Assembly (NCBI GenBank): GCA_937920275.1 | Contig: CALGVD010000100.1 | Coordinates: 1-34,249, forward strand | Reading direction: 5' to 3' | Length of the DNA: 34,249 bases | Source: an uncultured Pseudomonadota bacterium | Lineage (GTDB): Bacteria; Pseudomonadota; Gammaproteobacteria; Steroidobacterales; Steroidobacteraceae | Shown: positions 1,121 through 28,767 of the stretch, in pieces | Position numbering within the stretch: the stretch's first letter is position 1 | How the letters are laid out: the number at the start of each line of letters is the position of its first letter | The notes under the pieces: generated by a model | Told to the model about the DNA's origin: nothing | Seen by the model: the letters and a program-made list of their open reading frames with translations, nothing else | The model's database searches: none | Program-made: the position numbers and the translations under genes

Positions 1121-1717
1121 TCAAGCCGCCGTCTTACGCTCCGCGAACCGGATGACCGCCATGGCCAGCAGCACCGACAGGACGATGTCGCCGAAGCTCG
1201 TATAGAACAGCCAGGTGTCCTTGGAGAAGAACTGGGCCACGCCCCAGTTCACCACGGCCATCACCACCCCGAGCGTCGCGAGACCGGCTGCCATGCGCCG
1301 GTGGTCGATGGGGTTCGGCATGAAGCGCGCGAGCCGACCGCCGAAGTAGTTCCCGCGGTTGAAGATCGCATCGCCGAACATCACCGCGGCTACGGCGCCA
1401 CCGACGAGGGTGCTGCGCATCTTGATCGCCCAATCATCCTGGAAGAACCAAGCGAAGGCCGCCGAGACGCAGAGCACGGCCACGCCGAACAGCGCGAGGC
1501 CGCCGAGCAGATCCACCTTCACGAAGCGCTGGACGATGATCAGCGCAAGCCCCGCACCGGCACAGACCAGCGCCGGCGTGACGAGACTCTCCGTCATCTT
1601 GCCGACCACGAAGAACAGCAACGCCATGCCGAGATCGACGGCGATGGTCCATTTGTTCCGCTGCCACTGCGCGCGGGCGCGTGCGTCGGCGTCGTCCGCC
1701 GGAATCTCGGTGCTCAT
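1121..1717 (-). CDS. yciB: YciB/IspZ-like inner membrane protein (intracellular septation protein A family)
   Basis: A 198-residue polytopic protein with five or six hydrophobic segments (about 25-42, 48-64, 70-91, 103-115, 142-163, 172-190). The C-terminal WLFYTSFGDIVLSVLLA and the central GNYFGGRLARFMPNPID fit the septation protein A family from memory, although the protein is divergent. Family members sit in the inner membrane and are linked to cell-envelope synthesis and septation; their biochemical role is not settled. The ATG at 1717 has no Shine-Dalgarno but has TAGGGT (1729-1724) exactly six bases upstream, suggesting a leaderless mRNA. It stands alone, diverging from vapB. Confidence 0.65.
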   Translation of the reverse strand: MSTEIPADDADARARAQWQRNKWTIAVDLGMALLFFVVGKMTESLVTPALVCAGAGLALIIVQRFVKVDLLGGLALFGVAVLCVSAAFAWFFQDDWAIKMRSTLVGGAVAAVMFGDAIFNRGNYFGGRLARFMPNPIDHRRMAAGLATLGVVMAVVNWGVAQFFSKDTWLFYTSFGDIVLSVLLAMAVIRFAERKTAA

Positions 1718-1723
1718 CGGCGC

Positions 1724-1729
1724 ACCCTA
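1724..1729 (-). promoter_or_regulatory. putative -10 box for a leaderless yciB mRNA
   Basis: TAGGGT lies six bases before the ATG at 1717. TGGGCA (1752-1747), 17 bases further upstream, matches TTGACA at four of six positions. No Shine-Dalgarno is present. Confidence 0.5.
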
Positions 1730-1773
1730 GCAGGCGCGCCCGCGGGTGCCCAACCGCCCAAACCGGTCCCGGA

Positions 1774-1802
1774 TTGCATCACTGCATCAGATGTCATAGC
1801 AT
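1774..1802 (+). promoter_or_regulatory. putative vapBC promoter with repeated GCATCA
   Basis: TTGCAT (1774-1779), a 17-base gap, then TAGCAT (1797-1802), seven bases before the ATG at 1810. GCATCA occurs at 1776-1781, 1784-1789 and 1799-1804, and GATG (1790-1793) gives an inverted half. Such short repeats over the promoter are typical operators for autoregulating ribbon-helix-helix antitoxins. Confidence 0.55.
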
Positions 1803-1809
1803 CAACCTC

Positions 1810-2058
1810 ATGCGCACTACACTCGATATCGACACCCCGGTGCTGGATGCCGTGAAAGAACTCGCCCGGCGAGAGGGCCGCACCGCAGGCGCCATCGCCT
1901 CGGACCTCATCCGTCGCGCGCTGTCGCAGCCGATGACGGCCCCGGGCGTCCAGGAGCCCGCCGCCCGATACGGCTTCCGGCCTTTCCCCGCCGCGCCCAC
2001 CGACGACCGCGTCACCAACGAGCAGGTCAACCGGCTGCGCGACGACCTCGGCATCTAG
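1810..2058 (+). CDS. vapB: VapB-type antitoxin, ribbon-helix-helix (CopG-like)
   Basis: An 82-residue protein. Residues 1-40 (MRTTLDIDTPVLDAVKELAR, then AGAIASDLIRRAL) fit a ribbon-helix-helix DNA-binding fold: one beta strand and two helices. The C-terminal part, ending VTNEQVNRLRDDLGI, is the expected toxin-binding tail. It neutralises the PIN-domain toxin encoded 15 nt downstream and probably represses the shared promoter. The ATG at 1810 is chosen because the RHH strand begins there; the longer frame from 1681 is low-complexity and overlaps the yciB promoter. No Shine-Dalgarno is visible, and a -10-like TAGCAT lies seven bases upstream. The pairing with vapC makes the call firm. Confidence 0.87.
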   Translation: MRTTLDIDTPVLDAVKELARREGRTAGAIASDLIRRALSQPMTAPGVQEPAARYGFRPFPAAPTDDRVTNEQVNRLRDDLGI

Positions 2059-2073
2059 GGCCGCCCTCGGACC

Positions 2074-2514
2074 ATGCGCGCCCTGCCGGACGTCAACGTG
2101 CTCATCGCGCTGCTCGATGCCGGGCATGTGCACCACGGCGCGGCGACGCGCTGGCTCGGCGAGCACCTCTCGACCGGCCCGGCCGCCCACTGGGCATCCT
2201 GCCCTCTCACGCAGAATGGTTGCCTGCGCATCCTCTCCAACCGAGCCTATGTGCGGCCGCAACCGCTGGCGGCGGTGGCAGCCCGACTGGCCGAAGCGAC
2301 GGGAACAGCGCACCACGAATTCTGGCCAGACGACCTCTCGGTGCTCGAGCCCTCGCACTTCGCGCACGATCGCTGGCTCCACTCGAGGCAGATCACCGAC
2401 GCCTACCTGCTCGCCCTTGCCGTACATCGCGACGGCGTGTTCGTGACGCTCGACCGGGGCATCGATATATCTTTGGTCAAGGGCGCGACGCCGCGGCATC
2501 TGGTCACGCTCTGA
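2074..2514 (+). CDS. vapC: VapC-type toxin, PIN-domain ribonuclease
   Basis: A 146-residue PIN-domain protein. PIN nucleases use clustered acidic residues to hold metal and cut RNA, often tRNA or rRNA. Visible here: D6 in PDVNVLIALLD, D109 in ITDAYLLALA, D127 in TLDRG. In the usual second-acid region the sequence is CPLTQNGCLRIL, so residue 47 is Gln where many relatives have Glu; Gln is also found in this subfamily as far as I recall. Full length and directly downstream of vapB, so this is a complete type II module. The RNA target cannot be read from the sequence. Confidence 0.88.
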   Translation: MRALPDVNVLIALLDAGHVHHGAATRWLGEHLSTGPAAHWASCPLTQNGCLRILSNRAYVRPQPLAAVAARLAEATGTAHHEFWPDDLSVLEPSHFAHDRWLHSRQITDAYLLALAVHRDGVFVTLDRGIDISLVKGATPRHLVTL

Positions 2515-2547
2515 GCGCCGACCAGACGCCGCATCGTCGCGGTCACA

Positions 2548-4590
2548 TCACTTCAGCGCTGCCTCGAGTCCCGGCGTGTGTTGCACGCCCACCGGCACCT
2601 TCGCAGACGACTTCTTGACCGTCTCGCCGATCGGCTCGGCGCGCCCCTTCAGGCAACCGGCGAGGAAGTTCTCGGTCACCGCATTGAAGGCGATGTTGTT
2701 CTCGGGCCGCGCGAAGCCGTGGCCCTCGTCCGGGAACAGCACATAGGTCACCGGGATGCCCTTGGCCTGCATGGCCGAGACGATCTGATCGGACTCCGCC
2801 TGGTTGACGCGCGGGTCGTTCGCGCCCTGCCCGATCAGCAGCGGCCGCAGGATGTCGCCCGCCTTGTAGAGCGGCGAGCGCTCCTTGAGCAGCGCGAGGC
2901 CGTCCGGCGTGTTCGGGTTGCCCATGCGCTGGTGGAACTGCTCGATGAGCGGCACCCAGTACGGCGGGATGGTCTTGAGCAGCGTCTCGAGGTTCGAGGG
3001 GCCGACGATGTCGACGCCGCAGGCGAAGGTCGTCGGCGTGAAGGTGAGCCCCGCGAGCGTGGCGTAGCCACCGTAGGAGCCGCCCATGATCGCGACCTGG
3101 TCGACGGGCGCGACGCCGCGCTTCACCGCCCAATCCACCGCGTCGATGAGGTCATCGTGCATCTTGCGGCCCCACTCAAGGTCGCCCGCCGAGATGAAAG
3201 CCTTACCGAAGCCCGTCGAGCCGCGGAAGTTCACCGCGAGCACGGCATAGCCGCGGTTGGCGAGCCACTGGTGGTAGGAGTTGTAGCCATAGTCATCGCG
3301 CGCCCACGGGCCACCGTGCACCAGCAATACCATCGGCACGGGCGACGCCGGCACGCCGTCGCCGTCCGCATCGCTGCCCGGCGGCAGCGTGAGGTAGGAC
3401 GGCAGCGTCAGGCCGTCGCGCGATCTGATCTCGACCGGATGCATCGCCTGCAGCGGCGCGCCGACGAGTTCGGGTCGTGAGACATAGAGCTGCTTCAGCG
3501 TCTTGGCCTGACGCTCGTAGAGGTGCACCGAGGCGGGCGCGACCACCGGGTCGACCGCCACGGTCCACAACCGGTCGTCGAGGGTGCGCGAGGTGACGCT
3601 GATGTCGCCCTTCAGCTCCTTGCGCAACCACTCGAGGTCGGCGCCGATCTTCGGGTCGAGCGAGGTCCACTCATCGCGCAGGTAGGTCACGGCGTAGGCC
3701 TCGACCTCGCCCGTGCGCGGGTTCGACATCGCGTTGCTGATGTCGGCGCGGGCGTTCTCACCGATGATCCGCGTGCTGCCGGTCGCGGCATCTTGGGCCA
3801 CGAGCGCTGCGGTGTTGCGGCCGCGGCTGTCGATCCAATAGAGCGTCCTGCCATCGGTGGTGAAGCCGACGGGCTGCGTGGTCAAAGAATCATCGAGACC
3901 GGTGGAGGCGACGGGCTTGTCGGCCACCTTCGGGCCGGCCGCGGTGCTGCTGACGGTGAAGTAGTCCATGCCGCCTGCGGCATTGGGGCGCAGCGCGAGC
4001 CGCAGCGCGTGGTTGGCGTCGGCCACGAAGCCGGCGTAGCCATCGGCGCGCAGGATCTCGGTGAGTTTGCCGGTCTTGAGGTCGAGGCTATGGATGTCAT
4101 GCCACTGCGGGTCGCGGTTGTTGAGACCGACGAGGATGCGGTCCTTGATGAGCGGCGAGACGCTCACGACCTGCACGCGCGTCTTCTCGAACGGGGTCAG
4201 CGTGCGCTCGGCGCCGCTCTGCACATCGATGCCATAGAGCAGGAAGTTCTCGTCGCCCGCCTTGTCCTGGATGTACATCACCATCGAACTGTCGGGCGCC
4301 CAGAACATCTGGCGGATCGGCCGATCCTTTGAGGCCGTCAACGGCTTCGCGGCGTCGAGCTGGTCGATGGGGGCGACCCAGATGTTCATCACACCGTCAC
4401 GCGGCGCGAGCCATGCGAGGTGCTTGCCGTCCGGCGCGAGCGAAGCGCCCGCGCGGCTCGGGTTGCCGAAGAGCTTGGCCCGCTCGATGAGCGGGGCGGC
4501 CTGTGCAGCGGCCTGGGCGGCCGGCGACAGGGCGGATGCGGCGGTGGCAGTCATGAGGACTCCGACGAGGATGGCGTTGAGGATTTTCAC
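2548..4590 (-). CDS. secreted S9 family peptidase (acylaminoacyl/dipeptidyl peptidase-like)
   Basis: A 680-residue serine peptidase with a signal peptide (1 to about 28, ending AAQAAA), hence probably periplasmic. Residues about 35-360 form a beta-propeller gate (repeats such as LAPDGKHLAWLAP and WAPDSSMVMYI). Residues about 385-650 are the alpha/beta-hydrolase domain: nucleophile S505 in GGSYGGYA, D592 in GANDPRVN, H624 in DEGHGF. This is the S9B/S9C layout that removes dipeptides or acylated residues from short peptides. The start is GTG at 4590, with GGAG about ten bases upstream. It follows the XRE and membrane-protein genes on the same strand, but a TTGACA promoter and a 22-bp palindrome lie immediately upstream, so it can be controlled separately. 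Substrate specificity is not predictable here. Confidence 0.9.
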   Translation of the reverse strand: MKILNAILVGVLMTATAASALSPAAQAAAQAAPLIERAKLFGNPSRAGASLAPDGKHLAWLAPRDGVMNIWVAPIDQLDAAKPLTASKDRPIRQMFWAPDSSMVMYIQDKAGDENFLLYGIDVQSGAERTLTPFEKTRVQVVSVSPLIKDRILVGLNNRDPQWHDIHSLDLKTGKLTEILRADGYAGFVADANHALRLALRPNAAGGMDYFTVSSTAAGPKVADKPVASTGLDDSLTTQPVGFTTDGRTLYWIDSRGRNTAALVAQDAATGSTRIIGENARADISNAMSNPRTGEVEAYAVTYLRDEWTSLDPKIGADLEWLRKELKGDISVTSRTLDDRLWTVAVDPVVAPASVHLYERQAKTLKQLYVSRPELVGAPLQAMHPVEIRSRDGLTLPSYLTLPPGSDADGDGVPASPVPMVLLVHGGPWARDDYGYNSYHQWLANRGYAVLAVNFRGSTGFGKAFISAGDLEWGRKMHDDLIDAVDWAVKRGVAPVDQVAIMGGSYGGYATLAGLTFTPTTFACGVDIVGPSNLETLLKTIPPYWVPLIEQFHQRMGNPNTPDGLALLKERSPLYKAGDILRPLLIGQGANDPRVNQAESDQIVSAMQAKGIPVTYVLFPDEGHGFARPENNIAFNAVTENFLAGCLKGRAEPIGETVKKSSAKVPVGVQHTPGLEAALK

Positions 4591-4624
4591 AGACAGTTCA
4601 CTCCAATAGGGCCAACGGTTTGAT

Positions 4625-4646
4625 GTGTTATATATAAATATAACAC
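4625..4646. promoter_or_regulatory. 22-bp palindromic operator candidate over the S9 peptidase promoter
   Basis: GTGTTATAT, four bases, then ATATAACAC: a perfect 9-4-9 inverted repeat in an A+T-rich patch. It covers the putative -10 and start-site region of the S9 peptidase promoter, as a repressor operator would. The regulator is unknown; the XRE protein two genes upstream is one candidate. Confidence 0.6.
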
Positions 4647-4660
4647 CAATACAGTGTCAA
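4631..4660 (-). promoter_or_regulatory. sigma-70-like promoter of the S9 peptidase gene
   Basis: A perfect -35 TTGACA (4660-4655) is followed after 17-18 bases by TTATAT or TATATA (4637-4631). The -35 overlaps the TGA stop codon (4659-4657) of the upstream membrane-protein gene. The predicted leader is about 35 nt. Confidence 0.62.
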
Positions 4661-5178
4661 GCTTCGGGTTGTTCAGAGGGGAGGCTCCAGGCCAACACCA
4701 TGGCCGGCAGGGCAGCCGCGGCCATCACGAACGCAAGGATGAGACTCCCGCGGCCAGCGAAGAGGTCGTCCGTGTCGCTACCGAACGGCAGCAAGATGTG
4801 CAGGAAGAACGCAGCCACGCCCACGAACGCGAGTCCGCGATAGGCGACGGTGTAGGCCGCATCGCGCGCCGCGATCTGACGCTCGTCGAGCAACTCGTTC
4901 GGCGCATCGGAGATATGTCGCACCGCCTTGCGCAGCATGAGATACAGCCCGAGGGTGACCGCCAGCAGGGCGACCTCAAGATAGGACTGCAGTTTGGGCT
5001 GCGCCACCAAGGCGATGAGCGGCATGACGAGCAATACCAATGCATTCGCCCAGACCAACACCCGCCGCGACCCCTGCTGCCGCAGGCGCGAGGGCTGGGT
5101 GTCGTTGAGGCTGCGGACCACCTCCGCCTCGGTGACACCTTCGAACCAGAAGAACTTGCTGCGGCGCTTGGCGGTCAT
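4657..5178 (-). CDS. four-helix membrane protein paired with an XRE regulator
   Basis: 173 residues. Four hydrophobic segments (about 42-60, 66-82, 117-136, 150-167) with a cytoplasmic-looking basic start (MTAKRRSKFFWFEG). Between helices 2 and 3 is NELLDERQIAARDAAYTVAYRG, which recalls the DER...K/R...AY pattern of small membrane proteins (DUF2178-like) commonly encoded beside short XRE regulators. Function is not established; membrane stress sensing or control of the regulator is a guess. The ATG at 5178 is one base after the XRE stop, and its AGGGAG Shine-Dalgarno lies within the last XRE codons, so translation is coupled. Its stop codon lies in the -35 box of the S9 peptidase promoter. 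Confidence 0.65.
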   Translation of the reverse strand: MTAKRRSKFFWFEGVTEAEVVRSLNDTQPSRLRQQGSRRVLVWANALVLLVMPLIALVAQPKLQSYLEVALLAVTLGLYLMLRKAVRHISDAPNELLDERQIAARDAAYTVAYRGLAFVGVAAFFLHILLPFGSDTDDLFAGRGSLILAFVMAAAALPAMVLAWSLPSEQPEA

Positions 5179-5179
5179 G

Positions 5180-5413
5180 TCATCTCCCTTTCTTGAACGG
5201 CTTGATGGAGAACACCTCGGGCACCTCGGCCTCGAGGGCTGCGACGATCTTGAGCGCGAGCACGAGACTCGGGCTGTATTCGCCCCGCTCGAGGTAGCCC
5301 ACCGTCTGGTAGTGCACCCCGACCGCATCCGCGAGTTGCTGGCGCGTCAGCCCCTTGGCGAGACGCAGCTCCTCGACGCGGTTGAAGACGGGGTCTTCTT
5401 TCTGGCGACTCAT
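5180..5413 (-). CDS. short XRE-family (HTH_3) transcriptional regulator
   Basis: 77 residues, almost entirely one Cro/CI-type helix-turn-helix: RVEELRLAKGLTRQQLADAV, then recognition helix VHYQTVGYLERGEYSPSL and the closing LALKIVAALEAEVPEVFSI. There is no effector domain, as in the YozG-like class of compact regulators. ATG at 5413 is preferred over in-frame ATGs at 5419 and 5440 because TATGCT lies six bases before it and the 5440 start would put the operator inside the gene. It is encoded one base upstream of a four-helix membrane protein, a frequent pairing. A 12-bp palindrome over its own -10 suggests autorepression. Confidence 0.83.
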   Translation of the reverse strand: MSRQKEDPVFNRVEELRLAKGLTRQQLADAVGVHYQTVGYLERGEYSPSLVLALKIVAALEAEVPEVFSIKPFKKGR

Positions 5414-5419
5414 GGACAT

Positions 5420-5448
5420 AGCATATATGCTTAATAGCATTCATGCAA
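5420..5448 (-). promoter_or_regulatory. xre promoter with overlapping palindromes
   Basis: Minus strand: TTGCAT (5448-5443), 17 bases, TATGCT (5425-5420), six bases, ATG at 5413. The perfect palindrome AGCATATATGCT (5420-5431) overlaps the -10, and a related inverted repeat GCAT-TC-ATGC lies at 5437-5446 over the -35. Two similar half-site pairs are consistent with an autoregulatory operator. Confidence 0.6.
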
Positions 5449-5454
5449 CATCTT

Positions 5455-5483
5455 TTCGCAGCCCGGCGGCTGCGTGGTAACTT
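5455..5483 (+). promoter_or_regulatory. putative amn promoter
   Basis: TTCGCA (5455-5460), 17 bases, TAACTT (5478-5483), seven bases, then ATG at 5491. No Shine-Dalgarno is visible. It diverges from the xre promoter. Confidence 0.4.
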
Positions 5484-5490
5484 CACGCCC

Positions 5491-6267
5491 ATGAAGACCA
5501 AGCAAGAGATCGTCGACAACTGGCTGCCCCGCTACACCGGCACCGCCCTCGGGGACTTCGGCGAGCACATCCTGCTCACCAACTTCGGCAACTACCTCGA
5601 CTTCTTCGCCGCCCAGACCGGTGCGCCCATCGTGGGCCGCGACCGCCCGATGCCGAACGCGACCGCCGACGGCATCACCATGATCAACTTCGGTATGGGC
5701 AGCGCGAACGCCGCGACGGTGATGGATCTGCTGTCGGCGATCACGCCCAAGGCCGTACTGCTTCTCGGCAAATGCGGTGGCCTCAAGAAGAAGAACCAGC
5801 TCGGCGACCTCGTGCTGCCGATCGCGGCGATCCGCGGCGAAGGCACCTCGGACGATTACCTGCTGCCGGAGGTCCCCGCCCTGCCCGCCTTCAGCCTGCA
5901 GCGTGCGGTGTCGACCATGATCCGCGATCTCGATAGTGATTATTGGACCGGCACGGTGTACACCACCAACCGCCGCGTCTGGGAGCATGACGACGAGTTC
6001 AAAGAATACCTGCGCGAGACGCGCTGCATGGCGATCGACATGGAGACCGCGACCATCTTCGCCGCGGGCTTCGCCAACTCGATCCCGTCAGGCGCGCTGC
6101 TGCTGGTGAGCGACCAGCCGATGGTGCCGGATGGGGTGAAGACCGAGGCCTCGGACAAGCGGGTGACGGATGTCTTCGTGGAGAAGCACATCCGCATCGG
6201 CATCGAGGCGCTGCGCCTCATCCGTCGTCACGGCAAGAGCGTCAAGCACCTGCGCTTCGACGAGTAG
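5491..6267 (+). CDS. amn: AMP nucleosidase (short form)
   Basis: 258 residues of the nucleoside phosphorylase/hydrolase fold. Family members cleave AMP to adenine and ribose 5-phosphate in the cytoplasm, for purine balance. The start MKTKQEIVDNWLPRYTG and the segments ILLTNFGNYLDFF and GKCGGLKKKNQLGDLVLP are close to proteobacterial short AMP nucleosidases as I recall them. The catalytic region has AIDMETA (E185) and LVSDQP (D208), the usual purine-binding Glu and acid Asp. E. coli Amn is much longer, with an extra N-terminal regulatory domain absent here. ATG at 5491 is chosen because homology begins there; the in-frame ATG at 5443 would overlap the xre promoter. Confidence 0.86.
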   Translation: MKTKQEIVDNWLPRYTGTALGDFGEHILLTNFGNYLDFFAAQTGAPIVGRDRPMPNATADGITMINFGMGSANAATVMDLLSAITPKAVLLLGKCGGLKKKNQLGDLVLPIAAIRGEGTSDDYLLPEVPALPAFSLQRAVSTMIRDLDSDYWTGTVYTTNRRVWEHDDEFKEYLRETRCMAIDMETATIFAAGFANSIPSGALLLVSDQPMVPDGVKTEASDKRVTDVFVEKHIRIGIEALRLIRRHGKSVKHLRFDE

Positions 6268-6291
6268 CGCACCGGGGCGCGTCGCGATCGG

Positions 6292-7029
6292 TCAGCGGAA
6301 GACCTTCGACCAGAACGCCTTCATGTCTTCCCAGGATTGCCGGTCGGCCTTCTCGTCGTAGGCGAGCGGCAGGTTGTTCTTCTTGCCCTTCTCGGTGGCT
6401 TCCGGGTTCGTGAAGCCGTGCTTGGCGTCGGGGTAGGAGACGAACTGGTAGTCGACGCCGAGCGCCTGCATCTCCTTGTGGAAGTTCGCCTGGTCCTCGG
6501 CGGGCACGAGGCCGTCCGCCTCGCCGTGGCAGATGAGCACGGCGGGCTTGAACTCGCCGGGCTGCGCCTGGTGCGCGGCGGTGAGCGCGCCGTGGAAGCT
6601 CACGACGCCGCGCAACGGCATGCCGAGACGACCCATGTGCAGCGACAACGCGCCGCCCAAGCAATAGCCCATCGCGCCGATGCGCTCCGGGTCGACCTGC
6701 GGATGCGCGCGCAGCTGCTCGTAGGCCGCACGCAAGCGCTCGTTCAAGGCCGGGATGTCGGTGAACAGGCCGCCCATCAGCGCACCGGCTTCGGCGGCGT
6801 CAGCGGCCTCGCGTCCATCGCCGTAGACATCCACCGCGAGCGCGGCGAAGCCGAGCCCGGCGAGCTCGCGGGCGCGCCGTCGCGCATAATCATTGAGCCC
6901 CCACCATTCCGGAAGCACGAGCACCCCCGGGCGCTGGCCGTCGCGCGCCGGATCCCAGGCGAGGTAGCTGGCGAGTTCGCGGCCGCCGGCGACATAGCGC
7001 AGGATTTCAGTATGGGAGGCATCAGGCAT
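6292..7029 (-). CDS. dienelactone hydrolase family protein
   Basis: 245 residues, an alpha/beta hydrolase with the dienelactone hydrolase triad: C123 in GYCLGG, D172 in GEADGLVP, H204 in DAKHGF. E41 in LPEWWG is the conserved Glu that holds the cysteine in its inactive state. The family opens lactones such as dienelactone in chloroaromatic breakdown, but most chromosomal members have unknown substrates, and no aromatic-degradation genes are nearby. ATG at 7029 is the only start that removes a low-complexity upstream extension; no Shine-Dalgarno is seen. Converges with amn over a 24-nt gap and diverges from trmB. Confidence 0.88.
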   Translation of the reverse strand: MPDASHTEILRYVAGGRELASYLAWDPARDGQRPGVLVLPEWWGLNDYARRRARELAGLGFAALAVDVYGDGREAADAAEAGALMGGLFTDIPALNERLRAAYEQLRAHPQVDPERIGAMGYCLGGALSLHMGRLGMPLRGVVSFHGALTAAHQAQPGEFKPAVLICHGEADGLVPAEDQANFHKEMQALGVDYQFVSYPDAKHGFTNPEATEKGKKNNLPLAYDEKADRQSWEDMKAFWSKVFR

Positions 7030-7050
7030 GGCGAGGATCCGTTGGAGGCG

Positions 7051-7070
7051 AGTTGCGCGGGGGCGCAACT
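7051..7070. promoter_or_regulatory. perfect 8-bp stem-loop between DLH and trmB genes
   Basis: AGTTGCGC, loop GGGG, GCGCAACT, with three more pairs after a small bulge. It lies 21-42 nt before the ATG of the dienelactone hydrolase gene, so it would sit in that leader if transcription starts further upstream. It is not positioned as a terminator for any gene and could equally be an operator. Confidence 0.5.
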
Positions 7071-7134
7071 TTCGCAAGTAGGCCGGATTTCTGCAAGCCT
7101 TGCGTGGTCCGCTTGCTGTCATACTGACCGGTCG

Positions 7135-8569: not shown

Positions 8570-8579
8570 GTCGGACCGG

Positions 8580-9923
8580 TCAGCGGCGCGATTCAGGCGC
8601 AGCGGGCGCCGTGCCGTCCGATGCGGGCACTTCGCGTCCTGCCGTACCGAGCGCCTCGTCGACGACACCCCGTCGCCACATCCACCAGAAGAGTAGCACG
8701 CCGGGCAATGCGGCGACGGTGGTCAACAGGTAGAACTTCACATAGCCCAAGGACTCGATGAGACCGCCCGCCGTGGTGCCGGTCAACAACCGGCCGGCGA
8801 CGCTCGCGGCGGCCGACACCAAGGCATATTGCGCAGCGGTGTAGCGAAGGTTGCAGAGCGCGGACAGGTAGGCGACGACCACCACGCCACCGTAGCCGCT
8901 CGCGAAGTTCTCGAAACCGATCGCGGCGGCGAGGCCGAGGTTGCTGTGCCCGACTGCGGCGAGCCCCGCGAAACTCAGGTTGGAGACGCCCATCAGCACC
9001 AGCGCGAGCAGCACCGCGCGCGCGAGACCGAGACGCGCATAGAGCAGACCACCGACGAAGATGCCGACGAGGAACGCCCAGAACCCGACGCCGATGTCGT
9101 AGACCGCGATCTCGTCGTTGCTGTATCCCATATCGTTGAACAACAGCCGCAAGGTGAGGTTCGCGAGGGTGTCGCCGACCTTGTGGACCAGCACGAAAGT
9201 GAGCACCAGCACCGCACCGGGCCGCGTCAGGAAATCGCGGAACGGGCCTTCGATGGCGCGCCAGACCTCGCCGATCCCGCGTTGCCGCGCCACGATCTCG
9301 CGTCGCCGGGGCTCACCCACCACCCACGCCGTCAGCATGGCCGGCAAGGCGAAGGCCGCGCAGGCGATGTAAGCCGCCTCCCAGCCCGAACGCGCCGCGA
9401 TCAGCAGCGCCACCGCGCCGGCTGCAGCGGAGCCGATGCGCCAACCGTACTGCGACATCCCGGAGCCGATGCCGAGCTGCGCAGGCTGCAGCGTCTCGAT
9501 GCGATAGGCATCGATCACGATGTCGAAGGTGGCGCCCGCGACGCCGACCAGCACTGCCGCGATGATGGTCGCCTGCAAGCCCGCCTTCGGATCGACCAAG
9601 GCGAGGTTGATCACCGCGGCGATGACGAGTGCACCGGCAAACAACATCCAGGACACGCGCTGCCCGAGACGGCCGAGCAGCGGCAGCCGTACGCCATCCA
9701 CCATCCACGCCCAGAAGACCTTGAGGTTGTAGGCGAGGAAGGCCAGCGCGAACGCGGTGATCGTCTTCTTGTCGATGCCGTCCTGCGCGAGCCGCGTGGT
9801 GAGCGTCGCGCCGATCATCGCGTAGGGGAAGCCGGAAGAGATGCCGACGAAGAACGCCGCCAACGGTTCGCGCGCGAGATAGGGCCGGATGGGTGCCAGG
9901 GCCTTTCCCAAGATGCGTCTCAA
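8580..9923 (-). CDS. ampG: AmpG-like muropeptide permease (MFS)
   Basis: 447 residues with about 12 transmembrane segments. The N-terminal FFVGISSGFPYAMIGATL and YNLKVFWAWMVDGVRLPLLGRLGQR match the AmpG lineage of MFS proteins, which import anhydromuropeptides for wall recycling. No suitable ATG precedes helix 1. A TTG at 9923 overlaps the TGA stop of xth as TTGA, so I take it as the start with coupled translation. The C-terminus ends in a soluble tail (about 425-447). AmpG versus another permease of the same family cannot be separated with certainty, and no ampC/ampR gene is nearby. Confidence 0.78.
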   Translation of the reverse strand: MRRILGKALAPIRPYLAREPLAAFFVGISSGFPYAMIGATLTTRLAQDGIDKKTITAFALAFLAYNLKVFWAWMVDGVRLPLLGRLGQRVSWMLFAGALVIAAVINLALVDPKAGLQATIIAAVLVGVAGATFDIVIDAYRIETLQPAQLGIGSGMSQYGWRIGSAAAGAVALLIAARSGWEAAYIACAAFALPAMLTAWVVGEPRRREIVARQRGIGEVWRAIEGPFRDFLTRPGAVLVLTFVLVHKVGDTLANLTLRLLFNDMGYSNDEIAVYDIGVGFWAFLVGIFVGGLLYARLGLARAVLLALVLMGVSNLSFAGLAAVGHSNLGLAAAIGFENFASGYGGVVVVAYLSALCNLRYTAAQYALVSAAASVAGRLLTGTTAGGLIESLGYVKFYLLTTVAALPGVLLFWWMWRRGVVDEALGTAGREVPASDGTAPAAPESRR

Positions 9924-10687
9924 AGGTCGTAGTCCATGACGAGCGGTGCATGGTCCGAGAAGCGGCTCGCCTTGTGGATGTGGGCGGCGCGTGCCGCACC
10001 GGCGAGTCCAGCGCTCACGATCTGATAGTCGATGCGCCAACCGACGTTCTTCGCCCAAGCCTGTCCGCGGTTGGACCACCAGGTGTACTGATCGGGTTCC
10101 GGCACCACCTCGCGGAACGCATCGACCCAGCCTGACTCGCCGAACAAGGTGTCCATCCAGCCGCGCTCCTCGGGCAGGAAGCCGCTGTTCTTCTGGTTGG
10201 ACTTCCAGTTCTTCAGATCGATCGCCTTGTGGGCGATGTTCCAATCGCCGCAGAGGATGTACTCGCTGCGGCGTCGGCGCAGCCCTGCCAGATGCGACGG
10301 GAACGCTTCGAGGAAACGGAATTTCGAGGCCTGCCGCTCCGGGCCCGATGACCCCGAGGGAAGATAGAGCGACACCACCGACAAGGCGCCGAAGCGTGCT
10401 TCGAGATAACGACCCTCGCGGTCGAACTCCTCGACCCCGAATCCCCGGATCACTTCGCTCGGCTTGCGCTTGCAGTAAAGCGCCGTCCCCGAGTAGCCGG
10501 GACGCTCGGCATCGCAGAAAAAGCGGTGATAGCCCGGCAGTTCGATGTCATGGCCGACGAGCTGGGGTTCGTGTGCCTTGGTCTCCTGCAGGCAGACCAC
10601 ATCGGCCGCCTGATCCCTCAACCAGGCGAAGGCCCCCTTGGCGGCAGCGGAACGGATGCCGTTGGCATTCAAAGTGATGACGCGCAC
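9920..10687 (-). CDS. xth: exodeoxyribonuclease III family AP endonuclease (first copy)
   Basis: 255 residues of the EEP fold. Removes blocked 3' ends and cuts DNA at abasic sites. Catalytic residues are all visible: N8, E35 (LQETK), Y108 (LYLPSG), D148 and N150 (CGDWNIAHK), D220 (WRIDYQ), D245 and H246 (SDHAPL). GTG at 10687 is chosen because the family begins V/I-ITLN-NGIRSA exactly here and TATGAT lies six bases upstream; a longer ATG frame at 10741 would run into pyrE. Its TGA overlaps the TTG of ampG. Pairing with pyrE is common in gammaproteobacteria. A second family member is encoded at 25241-26017. Confidence 0.9.
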
Positions 10688-10692
10688 CGGGG

Positions 10693-10699
10693 TATCATA
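10693..10699. promoter_or_regulatory. overlapping bidirectional -10 element for xth and pyrE
   Basis: The plus strand reads TATCATA. TATCAT (10693-10698) lies six bases before the pyrE ATG (10705). The minus strand reads TATGAT (10699-10694), six bases before the xth GTG (10687). The whole intergenic gap is 17 bp, with no room for a Shine-Dalgarno on either side. No good -35 is visible for either gene. Confidence 0.6.
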
Positions 10700-10704
10700 G
10701 CGGC

Positions 10705-11373
10705 ATGAAGCCTTACCAACGTGCCTTCGTCGAACTCGCACTGTCGCGCAACGCCCTTCGTTTCGGACGCTTCACGCTCAAGTCCGGCCGTGAGAGCCCG
10801 TACTTCTTCAATGCCGGCCTGTTCGACGACGGCGCCGCGCTCGCCAGCCTCGGCCGCTGTTATGCCGCGGCGCTCGCGGACTCGGGCGTCGTCTGCGACA
10901 TGCTCTTCGGACCGGCCTACAAGGGCATCCCGCTGGTCGCGGCCACGGTCGCGGCGCTCGCCGAGCATCACGACCGCAACCTGCCCTGGGCGTTCAACCG
11001 CAAGGAGGCCAAAGACCACGGCGAGGGCGGACGCGTGGTCGGGCGCGCGTTGTCCGGCCGCGTCGTGATCGTCGACGATGTGATCACCGCCGGCACCGCG
11101 ATCCGCGAATCCGTCGATCTCATCCGGGCCGCCGGCGCCGAGCCGGTCGCGGTTCTGCTCGCGCTCGATCGACAGGAGCGCGGCCGCGGTGAACGCTCCG
11201 CCGTCCAAGAGGTCGAGGCCGACCTCGGCCTGCGCTGCGTCAGCCTGCTGACCCTCGACACCCTCATCGACATCCTCGCGAACCCCGTGGACGGCGCTGT
11301 CGCGCCTGCCGCGGAGCATCTCGCTGCGCTGCGCGACTATCGTGCGCAGTACGGTGTGACCGCCTCCCTCTGA
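10705..11373 (+). CDS. pyrE: orotate phosphoribosyltransferase
   Basis: 222 residues. Converts orotate and PRPP to orotidine 5'-monophosphate in pyrimidine synthesis. [16 protein letters not shown] (26-40), [11 protein letters not shown] (68-78) and the PRPP loop [13 protein letters not shown] (120-132) are diagnostic. Length and start match the family. No Shine-Dalgarno precedes the ATG; a -10-like TATCAT lies six bases upstream, implying a leaderless message. gabD follows after 22 nt on the same strand. No attenuator of the E. coli pyrE kind fits in the 17-bp upstream gap. Confidence 0.96.
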
Positions 11374-11395
11374 CCCCCCCCTCCGGAACATCACC

Positions 11396-17921: not shown

Positions 17922-17928
17922 GACAGGC

Positions 17929-19389: not shown

Positions 19390-19466
19390 GCGGTCTCCTG
19401 AAAGCCCGCTGAAGTGTAACCGAACAGACCCTGCGGTCTTGCCGACCGACCCGGTCCGTCAGGCTC

Positions 19467-20309: not shown

Positions 20310-20340
20310 GCTCACACACCGTCTCCGCGATCGACCCGCA

Positions 20341-20766: not shown

Positions 20767-20786
20767 GGATGCCTCGGGAAGGATGG

Positions 20787-21608: not shown

Positions 21609-21614
21609 GGGCGT

Positions 21615-21620
21615 AGGTTA
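21615..21620 (-). promoter_or_regulatory. putative -10 box for a leaderless SDR mRNA
   Basis: TAACCT, then six bases, then ATG at 21608. No Shine-Dalgarno and no good -35. Confidence 0.5.
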
Positions 21621-21636
21621 CTACGGACCGAGGGCG

Positions 21637-23199: not shown

Positions 23200-23204
23200 G
23201 GTCC

Positions 23205-23218
23205 ATTATCACCGGTGA
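23205..23218. promoter_or_regulatory. photolyase -10 box and adjacent palindrome
   Basis: GATAAT (minus, 23210-23205) matches TATAAT at five of six and lies five bases before the photolyase ATG. Partly overlapping it is the perfect 10-bp palindrome TCACCGGTGA (23209-23218). CCGGTGACGC is repeated at 23212-23221 and 23236-23245, 24 bp apart. Confidence 0.5.
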
Positions 23219-23267
23219 CGCTGTCGGCGTACTATCCGGTGACGCCGCCCGACCGCCAACGACCGCC

Positions 23268-23798
23268 ATGACCCCTGACACGACCGCGATCGTCATCGAC
23301 ACCCCCCGCCTCGCCTTGCGGGAGTTCACCGAGCAGGACGCACCCTTCGTGCTGCGGCTGCTCAACGAGCCCTCGTTCCACGAATTCATCGGTGATCGTG
23401 GGGTTCGGACGCTGGATGACGCCCGCCGCTACCTGCGCGAAGGCCCCATGGCGAGCTATCGCAGGCACGGTCACGGGCTGTTGCGCGTGGCGTTGCGGAG
23501 CGACCAGACGGTCGTCGGCATGTGCGGCTTGGTGCGACGCGACACCCTGCCGCTACCGGATCTCGGCTTTGCCTTGCTGCCTGTGGGTTGGGGGGCGGGC
23601 ATCGCGACCGAAGCCGGGCGCGCCGTGTTGGCCCACAGCCGGGACGCACTCGGCCTCACCGAGGTGTTGGCCATCACCTCGCCGGACAACACGCGCTCGA
23701 TGCGCGTGCTCGCCAAACTCGACATGGCACTGGAAGACTGCAGACCCCTCGCCGAGGGCGCAGCGGCGGTCAATGTATTCCGGGCATCCTTGCCGTAG
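23268..23798 (+). CDS. GNAT family N-acetyltransferase (RimJ/RimL-like)
   Basis: 176 residues. IDTPRLALREFTEQDAPFVLRLLNEP is the usual lead-in of RimJ/L-type GNATs. The acetyl-CoA region is DLGFALLPVGWGAGIATEAGRAV (core VGWGAGIATEA, Q/RxxGxG/A-like), followed by TSPDNTRSMRVLAKLDM. Transfers an acetyl group to an amine; the acceptor is unknown. No clear Shine-Dalgarno; a TACTAT at 23230-23235 could be the -10, giving a leader of about 26 nt. Diverges from the photolyase and converges on gor. Confidence 0.86.
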   Translation: MTPDTTAIVIDTPRLALREFTEQDAPFVLRLLNEPSFHEFIGDRGVRTLDDARRYLREGPMASYRRHGHGLLRVALRSDQTVVGMCGLVRRDTLPLPDLGFALLPVGWGAGIATEAGRAVLAHSRDALGLTEVLAITSPDNTRSMRVLAKLDMALEDCRPLAEGAAAVNVFRASLP

Positions 23799-23827
23799 AT
23801 TCGCCTCTCGTTGGCTGCTGGCGCCGC

Positions 23828-25183
23828 TCAACGCATCGTGACGAATTCCTCGGCGCTCGTCGGGTGGATCGCGATCGTATCGTCGAAGTCGCGCTTGGTG
23901 GCGCCCATGCGCAGCGCCACCGCAAAACCCTGCAACATCTCGTCGGCGCCTGCGCCGATCACATGGCAGCCGACGATGCGCTGCTCCGGCCCCACCGTCA
24001 CCAGCTTCATCTCGGCGCGGGGCTTGCGCGGCGTCAGCGCGTGGTACATCGGCACAAAGCCCGAGGTATAGACCTTCACCGCCGCGGCACCGTGATGCGC
24101 CAAGGCCTCGGCCTCCGAGAGACCCACCGTGCCGATCGGGGGATGGCTGAAGACCACGGTCGGGATGTCCGAGTAATCGAGGCGCCGGTCGGTCATGCCG
24201 CCGAACACCCGATCGGACCATCGTCGTCCCGCTGCGATGGCGACCGGCGTCAATTGCGCGCGACCGGTGACGTCGCCGATGGCGTGGATGCCCGGGATAT
24301 CGGTCTGTTGCAGCGCATCGACCGGGATGAAACCGGCCGCATCGCGCGTCACACCGACCCGTTCGAGCCCGAGACCCTCGACCGCCGGCTCGCGACCGAT
24401 GGCCCACAGCACCGCATCGAAAGGACCTGCGATCCGACCGTCCTGCAGCGCGAGCCGCAGCGTGCCGTCGGCGTCTCGGTCGAGCGCCTGCGGCGTTGCG
24501 TGATCGAGGAAGGTGACGCCGTCGTCCTCCATGATCTTGCGCAACCCCGTTCCCAACATGGCCTCGAAATTCCGCAGCACGCGGTCGCGGCGCAGCACCA
24601 TGGTCACCTCGCTGCCGAGCGCAGCGAACACGCCGGCGAGCTCTACCGCGATATAGCCGCTGCCCACGACCGCCACCCGCTGCGGCCGATCGGCAAGTTC
24701 GAAGAACCCGTCCGAGGTGATGCCGTGCTCCGCACCCGGGATCGCCGGCACCGAAGGACGACCCCCGGTCGCGATGACCACCTGCGGCGCTTCGAGCAGC
24801 GTGTCTCCGACACGGACCTCGTTCGGTGCGACGAACGCTGCATGGCCGCGGAACAGATCGACCTTGCGGTTGCCGAGGTTGCGTTCGTAGATGCCGTTCA
24901 ACCGCGCGATGTAGGCGTCACGCGCCGTCCGCAACGCCGACCAATCGTGACCGCCCAGCGTGAGATCGAAGCCGTAGTGCGCAGCATCGTGAGCGGCATG
25001 CGCGATCTGCGCTGCGTTCCACATGACTTTCTTCGGCACACAGCCCACATTGACGCAGGTGCCGCCGAGGCGTGCCGACTCCACGATCGCCACGCGCGCA
25101 CCGTACTCCGCCGCGCGCTGCGCGCAGGCGAGCCCACCGCTGCCACCGCCGATCACCACCAGGTCGTATCTAGAAGTTTGCAT
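23828..25183 (-). CDS. gor: glutathione-disulfide reductase
   Basis: 451 residues, a dimeric FAD enzyme that reduces glutathione disulfide with NADPH in the cytoplasm. FAD motif [17 protein letters not shown] (12-28); redox pair C43 and C48 ([13 protein letters not shown]); NAD(P) motif [17 protein letters not shown] with downstream arginines (LRRDRVLR) that favour NADPH; second FAD motif [10 protein letters not shown]-terminal HPTSAEE with the catalytic His-Glu pair. Length is normal. No Shine-Dalgarno precedes ATG at 25183; TAGGAT lies six bases upstream. Divergent from xthA, with 57 nt between the two start codons. Confidence 0.95.
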
Positions 25184-25189
25184 GACGAC

Positions 25190-25195
25190 ATCCTA
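25190..25195 (-). promoter_or_regulatory. putative -10 box for a leaderless gor mRNA
   Basis: TAGGAT, then six bases, then ATG at 25183. The -35 is weak and no OxyR-like site was found here. Confidence 0.5.
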
Positions 25196-25228
25196 CACGC
25201 GGTCCGCGCAGCGGGGCACGGGGTGGAT

Positions 25229-25234
25229 TAACCT
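25229..25234 (+). promoter_or_regulatory. putative -10 box for a leaderless xthA mRNA
   Basis: TAACCT, then six bases, then ATG at 25241. An earlier in-frame ATG at 25235 immediately abuts the hexamer, so this spacing favours the second ATG. Confidence 0.48.
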
Positions 25235-25240
25235 ATGGAC

Positions 25241-26017
25241 ATGGACACCTTGAGCATCGCCACCTGGAACGTGAACTCGCTGCGGGTCCGCCTGCCGCAA
25301 TTGGCCGAATGGTCTGCGGCGACCACCCCCGACATCATCGCGTTGCAGGAGACCAAGACCACCGATGCGGATTTTCCGTCCGCCGATCTCACAGCGCTCG
25401 GTTACCACAGCGCCTATGCTGGCCAACGCACCTACAACGGCGTCGCGGTGCTGTCGCGCGAGCCGATCACCGTGCTCGCCACCGAGCTGCCGGGGTTCCC
25501 GGACGAGCAGCGACGCGTGCTTGCGGTCGAGACGGCAGGGCTCACGGTGCTCGATCTCTATGTACCGAACGGACAGGCACTCGGCAGCGACAAGTTCGCC
25601 TACAAGCTCGGCTGGCTGGCTGCCTTGGCGGACTGGCTCGGCGGCGATTTCGGTCGGCGCGAGAACCTGGTCGTGCTCGGTGACTTCAACATCGCCCCGG
25701 AAGACCGCGATGTGCACGACCCGGTCAAATGGGCGGGCGGCGTACATGTGAGCCCCGAAGAGCGTGCAGCCCTGCAACGGATCGCCGACGCGGGCTTCAT
25801 CGACCTGTTCCGGCGTTTCGACCAAGCCGAAGGCAGCTTCAGCTGGTGGGACTACCGCCAAGGCGCGTTCCGTCGCAATCACGGCTTGCGCATCGACCTG
25901 ATCTTCGCCCATGCCGCCCTCGCGGCGCGCTGCAGCGGCTGTCACATCGACCGCGAGCCGCGGCGTGCCGAACGACCCTCAGACCATACGCCCGTCATCG
26001 CCGAGTTCACGCGCTGA
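25241..26017 (+). CDS. xthA: exodeoxyribonuclease III (second copy)
   Basis: 258 residues from the second of two in-frame ATGs (25235, 25241). An AP endonuclease and 3'-exonuclease of base-excision repair. Catalytic set visible: N10 (TWNVNSLR), E37 (ALQETK), Y107 (LYVPNG), D148 and N150 (LGDFNIAPEDRDVHDP), D219 (LRIDLI), D248 and H249 (PSDHTPV). IAPEDRDVHDP and the SWWDYR segment are those of the ExoIII/XthA subgroup, which differs from the copy at 9920-10687. It is divergent from gor, so oxidative damage repair and glutathione recycling share a 57-nt promoter region. Its 3' end overlaps the convergent M15 peptidase gene by 39 nt. Confidence 0.93.
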   Translation: MDTLSIATWNVNSLRVRLPQLAEWSAATTPDIIALQETKTTDADFPSADLTALGYHSAYAGQRTYNGVAVLSREPITVLATELPGFPDEQRRVLAVETAGLTVLDLYVPNGQALGSDKFAYKLGWLAALADWLGGDFGRRENLVVLGDFNIAPEDRDVHDPVKWAGGVHVSPEERAALQRIADAGFIDLFRRFDQAEGSFSWWDYRQGAFRRNHGLRIDLIFAHAALAARCSGCHIDREPRRAERPSDHTPVIAEFTR

Positions 26018-26758
26018 CACGGGCGACAGGCTCGCCATCAACGCCGCCGCCGGCGCAGCGTCCACGGCGCGGACGAAGCGCGCGTGCCAGTCGTCGATAC
26101 GCCGGTCGATCTCGCCGGCGCCTTCCAGTTCGACCGACGACAGCGCCTCACGCAGCACCGCGGCATCGAGCCGCGCCAGACAGTCCTCTGCAACGCGGGC
26201 ATGGCTGATATGCCAAGGTTCGGGCGCGACACCGCCCCGCTCGGCGGCATACGGCCGGAAGAACCCGAAGCGCGCCGCATGGCTCGTAAGCCAAGCATCG
26301 AGCCGCGCGAACGGGCCGCCCTCCCGATATTCCTCCGGCACCAACCGGGGCCGCTCGTCGGCAGGCAGCGCCGCGGCATCGTAGACATCGAGGTCGGTGC
26401 CCCAATGATGGCGGCTGGCACCGGGCAGCGCCGACCACGCGAGGATCGCCTCGATGCGCTCCGCGACCGGCAGCGACGCTGCCAAGATCACCTGCCCCGA
26501 CCGGTCGAGCAGTGGACGATCGCCGCGGAACTTCTCGTTCCAGATGAGGCACTGACGGTCGAAATCGCGGAACGACGAGGCCGGCCTGAGATCGATGCCA
26601 TCGTGTGCGGCGGCGGCGTGCAGCGCCAGGAACGGACCCGCCACGGCGGCGTGCAGCAGGCAGCGTGGCGACTCGAGCTGCAGCAGATGGGTGCGCGCTC
26701 GGCCGGTGAGTTCCTGCGCATCGAGCGGGCGGAAGCCGGTGTCGTCAAGGCGTGGCAT
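25979..26758 (-). CDS. M15 family D-alanyl-D-alanine carboxypeptidase-like protein
   Basis: 259 residues. The metal site fits the M15B (VanY/DacY-like) pattern SxHxxGxAxD...ExxH: S115, H117, G120, D124 (SRHHWGTDLD), then E180 and H183 (PEPWHIS). SSFRDFDRQCLIWNEKF is the usual substrate-side helix. Such enzymes trim D-Ala from peptidoglycan stems. No signal peptide is evident, so the location is unclear. ATG at 26758 is used; GTG at 26761 is also possible, since TATGCT (26774-26769) lies seven bases before it. The 3' end overlaps xthA. Confidence 0.83.
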   Translation of the reverse strand: MPRLDDTGFRPLDAQELTGRARTHLLQLESPRCLLHAAVAGPFLALHAAAAHDGIDLRPASSFRDFDRQCLIWNEKFRGDRPLLDRSGQVILAASLPVAERIEAILAWSALPGASRHHWGTDLDVYDAAALPADERPRLVPEEYREGGPFARLDAWLTSHAARFGFFRPYAAERGGVAPEPWHISHARVAEDCLARLDAAVLREALSSVELEGAGEIDRRIDDWHARFVRAVDAAPAAALMASLSPVSARELGDDGRMV

Positions 26759-26826
26759 CACGGGACGAAGCATACCGGATGCATCGCGACCTGCTGGAAC
26801 AGCGTCCCGCAGACCCGCAGAACGCC

Positions 26827-26832
26827 TAAAAT
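26827..26832 (+). promoter_or_regulatory. putative -10 box for a leaderless ABC-F mRNA
   Basis: TAAAAT, matching TATAAT at five of six positions, then six bases, then GTG at 26839. No Shine-Dalgarno. Confidence 0.55.
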
Positions 26833-26838
26833 CGGCCT

Positions 26839-28767
26839 GTGATCAACCTGCGCGATGTCCGCCTGCGACGCGGCCCCGAACCCCTCATCGAACACGCCAC
26901 GCTCAGCCTGTTGCAAGGCGAGAAGATCGGTGTGGTCGGCCGTAACGGCTGCGGCAAATCCACGCTGCTCGCCCTGCTGCAGGGCACGGTCGCGCCGGAC
27001 CAAGGGGACTTCGAGTGCCCGCCGGGACTGACCATCGCCGTGGTCTCGCAGGAACTGCCGCACTCGCAGCAGCCGGTGGTCGAACACGTGATCGACGGTG
27101 ATGCCGCACTGCGCAGCTGCGAGCGACAGTTGGCCGCAGCGCAGCACGCCGGCGATGGTCTCGCGCAAGCCCGCTGGCTCGGCGAGTACGATCACCTCGG
27201 GGGTTACACAGCGCGTAGTCGCGCGGCCGCGCTGCTCGATGGGCTCGGCTTCGAGGCTGCGGCGATCGATCGGCCGATCGCCGAGTTCTCCGGCGGGCTG
27301 CGCATGCGCGCCAACCTCGCACGCGCCCTGATGTGCCCGTCGCAGCTCTTGCTGCTCGATGAACCGACCAACCACCTCGATCTCGACGCCGTGTTGTGGC
27401 TGGAGCGTTGGCTGCAGGGCTATCGCGGCATGCTGCTGCTGGTCTCGCACGATCGCGACTTCCTCGATGCCGTCGTCGGCCGCGTGCTGCACATCCAGGG
27501 CGGACGCATCGATTCCTACGCCGGGGACTTCAGCCGTTTCGAGACGCTGCGCGCGGCGCGTCTGGCGCAGCAACAGGCCGTCAACGAGAAGCTGCGGCGC
27601 GAGACCGCCAGGGTACAGAGCTTCATCGACCGTTTCCGCGCACAAGCCACCAAAGCCCGCCAAGCCCAAAGCCGCATCAAATGGCTCGAGCGCCTGCCGT
27701 CGATCATCGAACAGCAAGGCGAGTCGGCGTTCGAATGGTCGTTCGCCGAACCCGCAAGGCTGCCCGAACCGCTCGTGGTGCTCGATCGGGTCGCCGCCGG
27801 CTATCCAGGTCGGGCCGTGCTCAGCGACATCCGGTTGTCGGTCCGGCCCGGTATGCGCCTCGGCATCCTCGGCCGCAACGGTGCGGGCAAATCCACGCTG
27901 GTCCGTACACTCGCAGGCGATCTGGAGCCGCTCAGTGGCAACCGCACCGCTGCGCCCGACCTCGAAGTCGGATTCTTCGCACAGCTCGAAGTCGACCAGC
28001 TCGACCCGGGCGACAGTGCGATCGGTCAGCTCGCACGCCGTGGCGGACCGGCGCGCGGATGGACCGAGCAACAACAGCGCGACCATCTCGGCTCGTTCGG
28101 CTTCCGCGGGGATCGCGTGTTCGAGCCGGTGGGCCGGTTCTCCGGCGGCGAACGCGCGAGGCTGTCGCTCGCCATCCTCGTGGCCCGCCGTCCGAACCTG
28201 CTGCTGCTCGACGAACCCACCAACCACCTCGACCATGAGATGCGTGATGCGCTGTTGGTCGCGCTGCAGGAGTTCGCAGGCGCCGTGGTGCTGGTGTCGC
28301 ATGACCGCGGGCTGCTCGGCGGCGTGTGCGATGAGTTCGTGCGGGTGCGCGCCGGCCGCATCGAACCCTACGACGGCGACCTCGCCGACTACGCGCGTTG
28401 GCTCGGTCAAGGCGAGGATGCCGCGACCAGCGTCCCATCCGGCATCGGGGGCGACACGGCGATGGATACCGCGCCGCTCACCGCCGCCGATCGCCGTGAG
28501 CAGCGGCGCCTCGACGCGGAACGGCGCAATCGTCTGACACCGTTGCGTGCAGAGATGCGCCGCATCGAAGAGGATCTCGAGCGCCGCAACACCGAGCGGA
28601 CAGCGATGGAAGCGCAGCTCGCCGACCCCGCGTTGTACGCCGCGAGCACGGACGCTGCGCGCGGACTGCCCTTGCGCCACGCGCAGTTGTCGGCGCAGAT
28701 CGAGGCGCTCGAGGAGCGTTGGCTGGCCCTCGGAGCAGAACTGGAGGCCGCGACGGCGGCACCGTGA
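26839..28767 (+). CDS. yheS: ABC-F family ATPase, YheS-like
   Basis: 642 residues with two ATP-binding domains and no membrane segments. Walker A at 34-41 (GRNGCGKS) and 345-352 (GRNGAGKS); signatures FSGGLRMRANLARAL and FSGGERARLSLAIL; Walker B LLLLDEPTNHLD twice. The linker between them is charged and helical (LAQQQAVNEKL, SFIDRFRAQATKARQAQSRIKWLERL). The C-terminal about 100 residues form a coiled coil (REQRRLDAERRNRL...). Length and sequence follow E. coli YheS. ABC-F proteins bind the ribosomal E site and ease stalled translation. The start is GTG at 26839, six bases after TAAAAT, without a Shine-Dalgarno. Confidence 0.92.
   Translation: MINLRDVRLRRGPEPLIEHATLSLLQGEKIGVVGRNGCGKSTLLALLQGTVAPDQGDFECPPGLTIAVVSQELPHSQQPVVEHVIDGDAALRSCERQLAAAQHAGDGLAQARWLGEYDHLGGYTARSRAAALLDGLGFEAAAIDRPIAEFSGGLRMRANLARALMCPSQLLLLDEPTNHLDLDAVLWLERWLQGYRGMLLLVSHDRDFLDAVVGRVLHIQGGRIDSYAGDFSRFETLRAARLAQQQAVNEKLRRETARVQSFIDRFRAQATKARQAQSRIKWLERLPSIIEQQGESAFEWSFAEPARLPEPLVVLDRVAAGYPGRAVLSDIRLSVRPGMRLGILGRNGAGKSTLVRTLAGDLEPLSGNRTAAPDLEVGFFAQLEVDQLDPGDSAIGQLARRGGPARGWTEQQQRDHLGSFGFRGDRVFEPVGRFSGGERARLSLAILVARRPNLLLLDEPTNHLDHEMRDALLVALQEFAGAVVLVSHDRGLLGGVCDEFVRVRAGRIEPYDGDLADYARWLGQGEDAATSVPSGIGGDTAMDTAPLTAADRREQRRLDAERRNRLTPLRAEMRRIEEDLERRNTERTAMEAQLADPALYAASTDAARGLPLRHAQLSAQIEALEERWLALGAELEAATAAP

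Follow-up and report, generated by a model that had tools for sequence, protein, structure and literature searches.

TANNNT hexamers at a fixed distance from start codons point to leaderless expression of a minority of genes in a Steroidobacteraceae-like genome

The 34,249-nt stretch analysed here (the window) is a contig, CALGVD010000100.1 (C100), of the assembly GCA_937920275.1 from an uncultured Steroidobacteraceae-like gammaproteobacterium. Ten of its genes carry the hexamer TANNNT six or seven bases before the start codon. These hexamers are best explained as -10 elements of sigma70-type promoters, set so that transcription would begin at the start codon or no more than two bases from it and yield leaderless messages; we put the probability of this reading at roughly 0.88. 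Four direct observations carry it: the fixed spacing, the promoter features around the hexamer, the exclusion of Shine-Dalgarno sites and the conservation in related genomes. Leaderless genes would account for about 7-11% of the genes of this genome, a rough figure obtained with our own uncalibrated gene caller.

Positional enrichment upstream of start codons

The assembly comprises 2.7 Mb in 137 contigs, is 99.75% complete and has a G+C content of 65-69%. Two fragments of 16S rRNA were found in it (868 nt and 28 nt). The named relative with the highest identity in PyrE (76%) is L004, a metagenome-assembled genome (MAG) of the Steroidobacteraceae, whose xth-pyrE sequence and pattern counts are the same as those of the congener G019; on this basis the window very probably comes from that family. 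Starts were predicted with a purpose-written caller that relied on codon composition and start-codon type only and made no use of upstream signals. Its input was the window together with 60 stretches of the same genome, 699 kb in total and 665 kb of it outside the window; 578 starts with at least 60 nt of upstream sequence were usable, 32 within the window and 546 outside. The number of bases between the end of TANNNT and the start codon is given as k, and the main test was made at k=6-8.

Outside the window 50 of the 546 starts had TANNNT at k=6-8, where about 10 were expected (P = 5.7e-20), with 24, 16 and 10 cases at k=6, 7 and 8, respectively. For all 578 starts the corresponding counts were 30, 16 and 10 against an expectation of 3.6 per position. 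An earlier note, based on the window, had listed eight starts with TANNNT at exactly six bases and two, vapB and amn, with it at seven. Direct reading and scripts found the element at all ten, and the note's chance rate of about one in 200 agrees well with the computed 0.62% per start and position. The positional peak which it had proposed to look for is present at 6-8 nt, in the sample outside the window too. Its impression that many genes look leaderless is thus borne out in so far as the peak extends beyond the window, at the fraction given above and not at the quarter seen in the window, which is richer in such starts than the rest of the sample (6/32 called starts at k=6 versus 24/546).

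The excess was also seen with a looser choice of start. When any near-best start was allowed, 87 of 578 genes had a site at k=6-8 and 17-29 had one at each of ten other spacing triples, which puts the excess at roughly 11% of genes; for starts that are divergent or separated from the next gene by 50 bp or more the figures were 59 of 311 and 13-23. In the whole genome TANNNT-N6-ATG occurred 206 times, the reversed pattern 127 times and the pattern with a spacing of 12 (ATG only) 97 times. A small second TANNNT peak was seen 30 nt before starts (12 versus about 3.6 expected among the 578) and may reflect leaders of about 24 nt.

It might be thought that the peak is compositional, upstream stop codons (TAA, TAG) or codon bias placing TANNNT near starts, and indeed for 15 of the 55 starts the neighbouring gene is co-directional and less than 50 bp away. 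This artefact was ruled out because the peak persisted at called starts that are divergent or separated by a gap of 50 bp or more (21, 11 and 6 of 311 at k=6, 7 and 8, against 0-8 at 37 other positions), because Pseudomonadaceae of similar G+C content had no peak (0/299 starts at k=6-8) and because none appeared at decoy spacings. The -35-like TTG at a spacer of 17 bp described below also argues against it, and we regard a compositional origin as extremely improbable.

Promoter features and exclusion of Shine-Dalgarno sites

The TANNNT hexamers look like sigma70 -10 elements. Their inner bases, which were not used for selection, favour T, A and A and thus resemble TATAAT; G was present at -2 in 33 of 56 TANNNT starts, and TTG stood at a spacer of exactly 17 bp in 8 of 55 compared with 0-3 at 19 other offsets. 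One of 55 TANNNT starts had a Shine-Dalgarno tetramer, compared with 176 of the remaining 523 (P = 2e-8), and this single case is an AGGA inside the hexamer of gor. The same holds for the ten window starts, none of which has a Shine-Dalgarno tetramer except the AGGA within gor's own TAGGAT, while putP, dps and the CDGSH gene have such sites as previously claimed (read by eye). ATG, GTG and TTG were used at 50, 5 and 0 of the 55 TANNNT starts and at 418, 84 and 21 of the 523 others, which on these few cases is suggestive of a preference for ATG and GTG.

These features suggest the following mechanism. An ordinary sigma70-type promoter with TANNNT as its -10 would start transcription at the start codon or one or two bases off, and the resulting mRNA would have neither a leader nor a Shine-Dalgarno site. 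The position of the transcription start is predicted here from that of the hexamer. The ribosome, probably as a 70S particle or as a 30S subunit that already carries the initiator tRNA, would take the 5'-terminal AUG or GUG directly, and this mode would run alongside Shine-Dalgarno initiation. The ribosomal step is borrowed from published work on leaderless messages (available parts of PMC10783764 and PMC12340547), not from this genome.

A closely related possibility is that the promoters are real and produce messages with a leader of just one to five bases. The spread of the spacing over k=6, 7 and 8 (56 of the 578 starts in the proportions given above) would fit such leaders, as would the shifts between 6 and 9 nt seen among congeners in single genes (xthA, ABC-F and xre). 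On the other hand the mode lies at exactly 6 nt, and k=4 and k=5 stay close to the background level (6 and 2 of 578), so that short leaders appear to be an unlikely, if still serious, alternative to truly leaderless messages.

Choice of start codons

Without help from upstream signals the caller picked six of the eight window starts with k=6. It missed xre, where an overlapping open reading frame on the opposite strand was called instead, as well as vapB, and it placed the start of xthA six bases and that of amn 48 bases upstream of the starts proposed earlier. Relatives favour the earlier starts in both cases; for xthA most of them have ATG at the position of 25241 and none at that of 25235. 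Corrections at xthA and amn, missed by a caller blind to this signal, are therefore suggested.

Since start choice is uncertain in GC-rich genomes, as these two misplaced starts illustrate, the -10 elements could be genuine while translation truly begins further downstream, behind a leader. This seems improbable given that the pyrE, xth and ABC-F proteins align from residue 1 in congeners and have ATG or GTG there, the xth of L156 excepted.

Conservation in related genomes

The counts for congeners given below include the window's own copy for every gene except SDR, and for pyrE and xth G008 entered the count twice. At four decoy spacing triples each gene had 0-1 loci, apart from xre with 3/6 at one of them. 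The divergent genes xth and pyrE have conserved sites on both strands. On the forward strand TATCAT (10693..10698) precedes the ATG of pyrE at 10705 with k=6, and all 22 genus loci, own included, have the element at k=6-8. On the reverse strand TATGAT (10694..10699) precedes the GTG of xth (Exo_endo_phos) at 10687, also with k=6, in 20 of 21 genus loci; the single miss is L156, whose alignment begins at residue 68. Beyond the genus set, the named relatives L003, L006, L007, L008 and L044 also have the xth element at k=6, while L005 gave no xth match in the same comparison. TAAAAT (26827..26832, forward) lies six bases before the GTG of the ABC-F gene at 26839 and recurs at k=6-7 in 20 of 21 loci, own included. 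xthA (Exo_endo_phos; ATG 25241, forward) has TAACCT at 25229..25234 with k=6, conserved at k=6-8 in 17 of 19 loci, and amn (PNP_UDP_1; ATG 5491, forward) has TAACTT at 5478..5483 with k=7, conserved at k=7-8 in 16 of 18 usable loci, own included.

The remaining sites are less uniform or less widely sampled. For xre (HTH_3; ATG 5413, reverse), with TATGCT at 5420..5425 and k=6, four of six loci had k=6-8 and the remaining two k=9. Upstream of SDR (PF00106; ATG 21608, reverse) TAACCT lies at 21615..21620 with k=6, and the sole relative examined, G006, has TAGCAT at k=6. yciB (IspA family, PF04279; ATG 1717, reverse) has TAGGGT at 1724..1729 with k=6, and an element at k=6-8 was present in only 2 of the 9 loci that could be used, its own among them. 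The vapB-like gene (ATG 1810, forward), which is without a Pfam family, has TAGCAT at 1797..1802 with k=7; among the 13 yciB loci fetched no relative of it was present, only the window's own copy.

gor (Pyr_redox_2; ATG 25183, reverse) has TAGGAT at 25190..25195 with k=6, and 13 of 21 loci have an element at k=6-8. In 12 of 21 loci the extended motif GTGTA-N-[CG]-AT is placed so that its hexamer stands 6-8 nt before the ATG. In four others (L176, L177, L181 and L183) the same motif is found at 23-28 nt and a Shine-Dalgarno site precedes the ATG. Judged from these positions, the gor promoter is leaderless-type in some congeners and leadered in others, which makes gor a natural comparison between the two forms of one gene.

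A second genome, G006, showed TANNNT at k=6 at 16 of 529 starts (P = 8.5e-9), with Shine-Dalgarno sites at 0/33. Orthologues were compared without hand-picking in 104 reciprocal pairs, 63 of which used the called and not the homologous start. The element was present in G006 at 4 of 10 genes positive in our genome versus 2 of 94 negative ones (P = 0.0006).

Some genes of the window deserve mention in their own right. The vapB-like reading frame is followed by a PIN-domain protein (PF01850), and the two (1810-2514) resemble a toxin-antitoxin pair. Two exonuclease III-like proteins are encoded at 9920-10687 and 25241-26017 (both PF03372), and each gene has a conserved leaderless-type promoter to itself. 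Judged by eye, a short YD-repeat-like protein is encoded on the reverse strand at 375-782, with a GA-rich simple repeat beside it at about 904-930.

Distribution in other lineages

With the same pipeline no excess was found in 150 kb of Escherichia coli, in 20 Enterobacterales loci or in 16 Pseudomonadaceae loci, whereas seven related MAG loci (128 starts) gave an excess of 7%. Small gene-level samples from Lysobacterales (30 starts) and from Competibacter, Chromatiales and Burkholderiales MAG loci (97 starts) were also without excess; some of the genomes behind these samples do show one by pattern counts. In these counts, made over whole genomes, spacing 6 was compared with spacing 12, and an excess above three standard deviations of counting was taken as the strong mark. 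The decoy at spacing 12 is imperfect, since Pseudomonas and some other named genomes reach ratios of about 1.1, and ratios near this value were therefore not counted as signal.

All 24 genomes of the genus, own included, had more matches at spacing 6 than at spacing 12 (17 past the strong mark), as did 25 of 25 from other genera of the family (14 past it) and 30 of 31 from other families of the order (6 past it). Seven of 39 named genomes passed the mark, namely L003, L004, L008, the Lysobacterales MAGs L061 and L064, L041 (titled Chromatiaceae) and L082 (titled Burkholderiales). The genome of the last (G118, MAG SJ632) has 148 against 86 occurrences, as strong as many relatives of the window, and its PyrE is 62% identical, so that its title may be questionable. 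On balance we lean towards a lasting, conserved programme in this family, outside the clades known for leaderless genes, that would cover at least a tenth of genes, allow switching of the gor type with the -10 kept, and preserve the palindromic 7-bp -10 of xth/pyrE across the genus.

One -10 element for two divergent genes

The hexamers of xth and pyrE overlap in a symmetric TATNATA core (here TATCATA, 10693..10699, read on both strands), and their start codons are 18 bp apart. We predict that this single palindromic core serves both genes as promoter element and that transcription of either would begin at its start codon. The core was present in 21 of 21 loci listed; the distance between the start codons was 18 bp in 20 of them and 19 bp in L156. 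The site lends itself to minimal tests of a two-way promoter at which one base would be the first to be transcribed and also the first to be translated.

The exact geometry CAY-N5-TANNNTA-N5-RTG occurred once in our genome, at xth/pyrE. Over the 24 genus genomes it was found 35 times and its reversed control 26 times; in 25 other genera of the family the figures were 13 and 45. A widespread class of palindromic two-way leaderless promoters was rejected on these counts, and xth/pyrE is consequently one conserved site. Another divergent pair of our genome, at about 5154-5179 of L142 (contig C60), has leaderless-type starts on both sides, overlapping -10 hexamers and start codons 21 bp apart.

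Points against the interpretation

Several results weigh against leaderless expression or against the fraction given for it. The count at k=6 fell from 30/578 to 24/572 with another training threshold; start choice thus matters and the fractions are rough. The intended positive control, plasmid 3 of Deinococcus deserti, gave a weak peak (148 starts, 2.8% excess, P = 0.025), which leaves the sensitivity uncalibrated and is a further reason to take absolute fractions as rough. The yciB element is not conserved. In G006 the excess is lower, at 4-5%, and six of the ten starts positive in our genome had lost the element. Three of these losses are solid and three are doubtful pairs, two with less than 40% identity and one in which gor was matched to a 44% paralogue; since four of the six have a Shine-Dalgarno tetramer in G006, the element appears to have survived at some genes and to have been replaced elsewhere. 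Finally, 347 of 578 starts (about 60%) had neither signal. The proposal that two translation modes coexist agrees with the near-exclusive occurrence of Shine-Dalgarno and TANNNT starts, but the two modes do not cover all genes.

Comparison with known systems

Literature searches pairing leaderless with Steroidobacter, and searches on leaderless divergent bidirectional promoters, returned nothing on either subject as judged by titles and the beginnings of abstracts, and in searches for mapped leaderless starts in Xanthomonas the matches listed included no transcript map of that genus. Leaderless expression would thus be extended to a further proteobacterial lineage for which little has been described so far.

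Symmetric bidirectional promoters usually start transcription on the two strands at positions 18 bp apart and have a near-palindromic -10 in common (PMC10268837, as far as its available text goes). xth/pyrE is like them in its near-palindromic common -10 and in predicted start sites 18 bp apart. It differs from the promoters described in that text in that both predicted start sites fall on start codons and that the conserved site is flanked by two protein-coding genes.

In Deinococcus-Thermus TANNNT serves as a -10 adjoining the open reading frame, a well-placed -35 raises expression, and in D. radiodurans about a third of genes have this arrangement, which was tested by experiment (excerpts of PMC12340547). 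The window's genome shares the TANNNT beside the reading frame, probably as a -10; it differs in having fewer such genes, which are predicted from sequence.

Closest to our case are the TA-led genes of Zheng et al. 2011, who looked at 239 gammaproteobacterial genomes and reported leaderless genes in 15 of them, mostly Xanthomonadales and Legionellales, where they made up 3.0-5.7% of genes (PMC3160421, in the portions accessible to us). The abundance which the earlier note called notable for a gammaproteobacterium is therefore new as to lineage and already reported in kind. Both sets have TANNNT about 12 bp upstream (counted from the first T), in the high-GC form with an uninformative middle, beside Shine-Dalgarno genes. 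Ours differs from theirs in the Steroidobacteraceae-like lineage, in the higher fraction, reached by a different and uncalibrated method, and in the gene-by-gene conservation. While the mechanism itself is known, the lineage, the conservation at the level of genes, the two-way palindromic -10 of xth/pyrE and the variation of gor between leaderless and leadered forms are new here.

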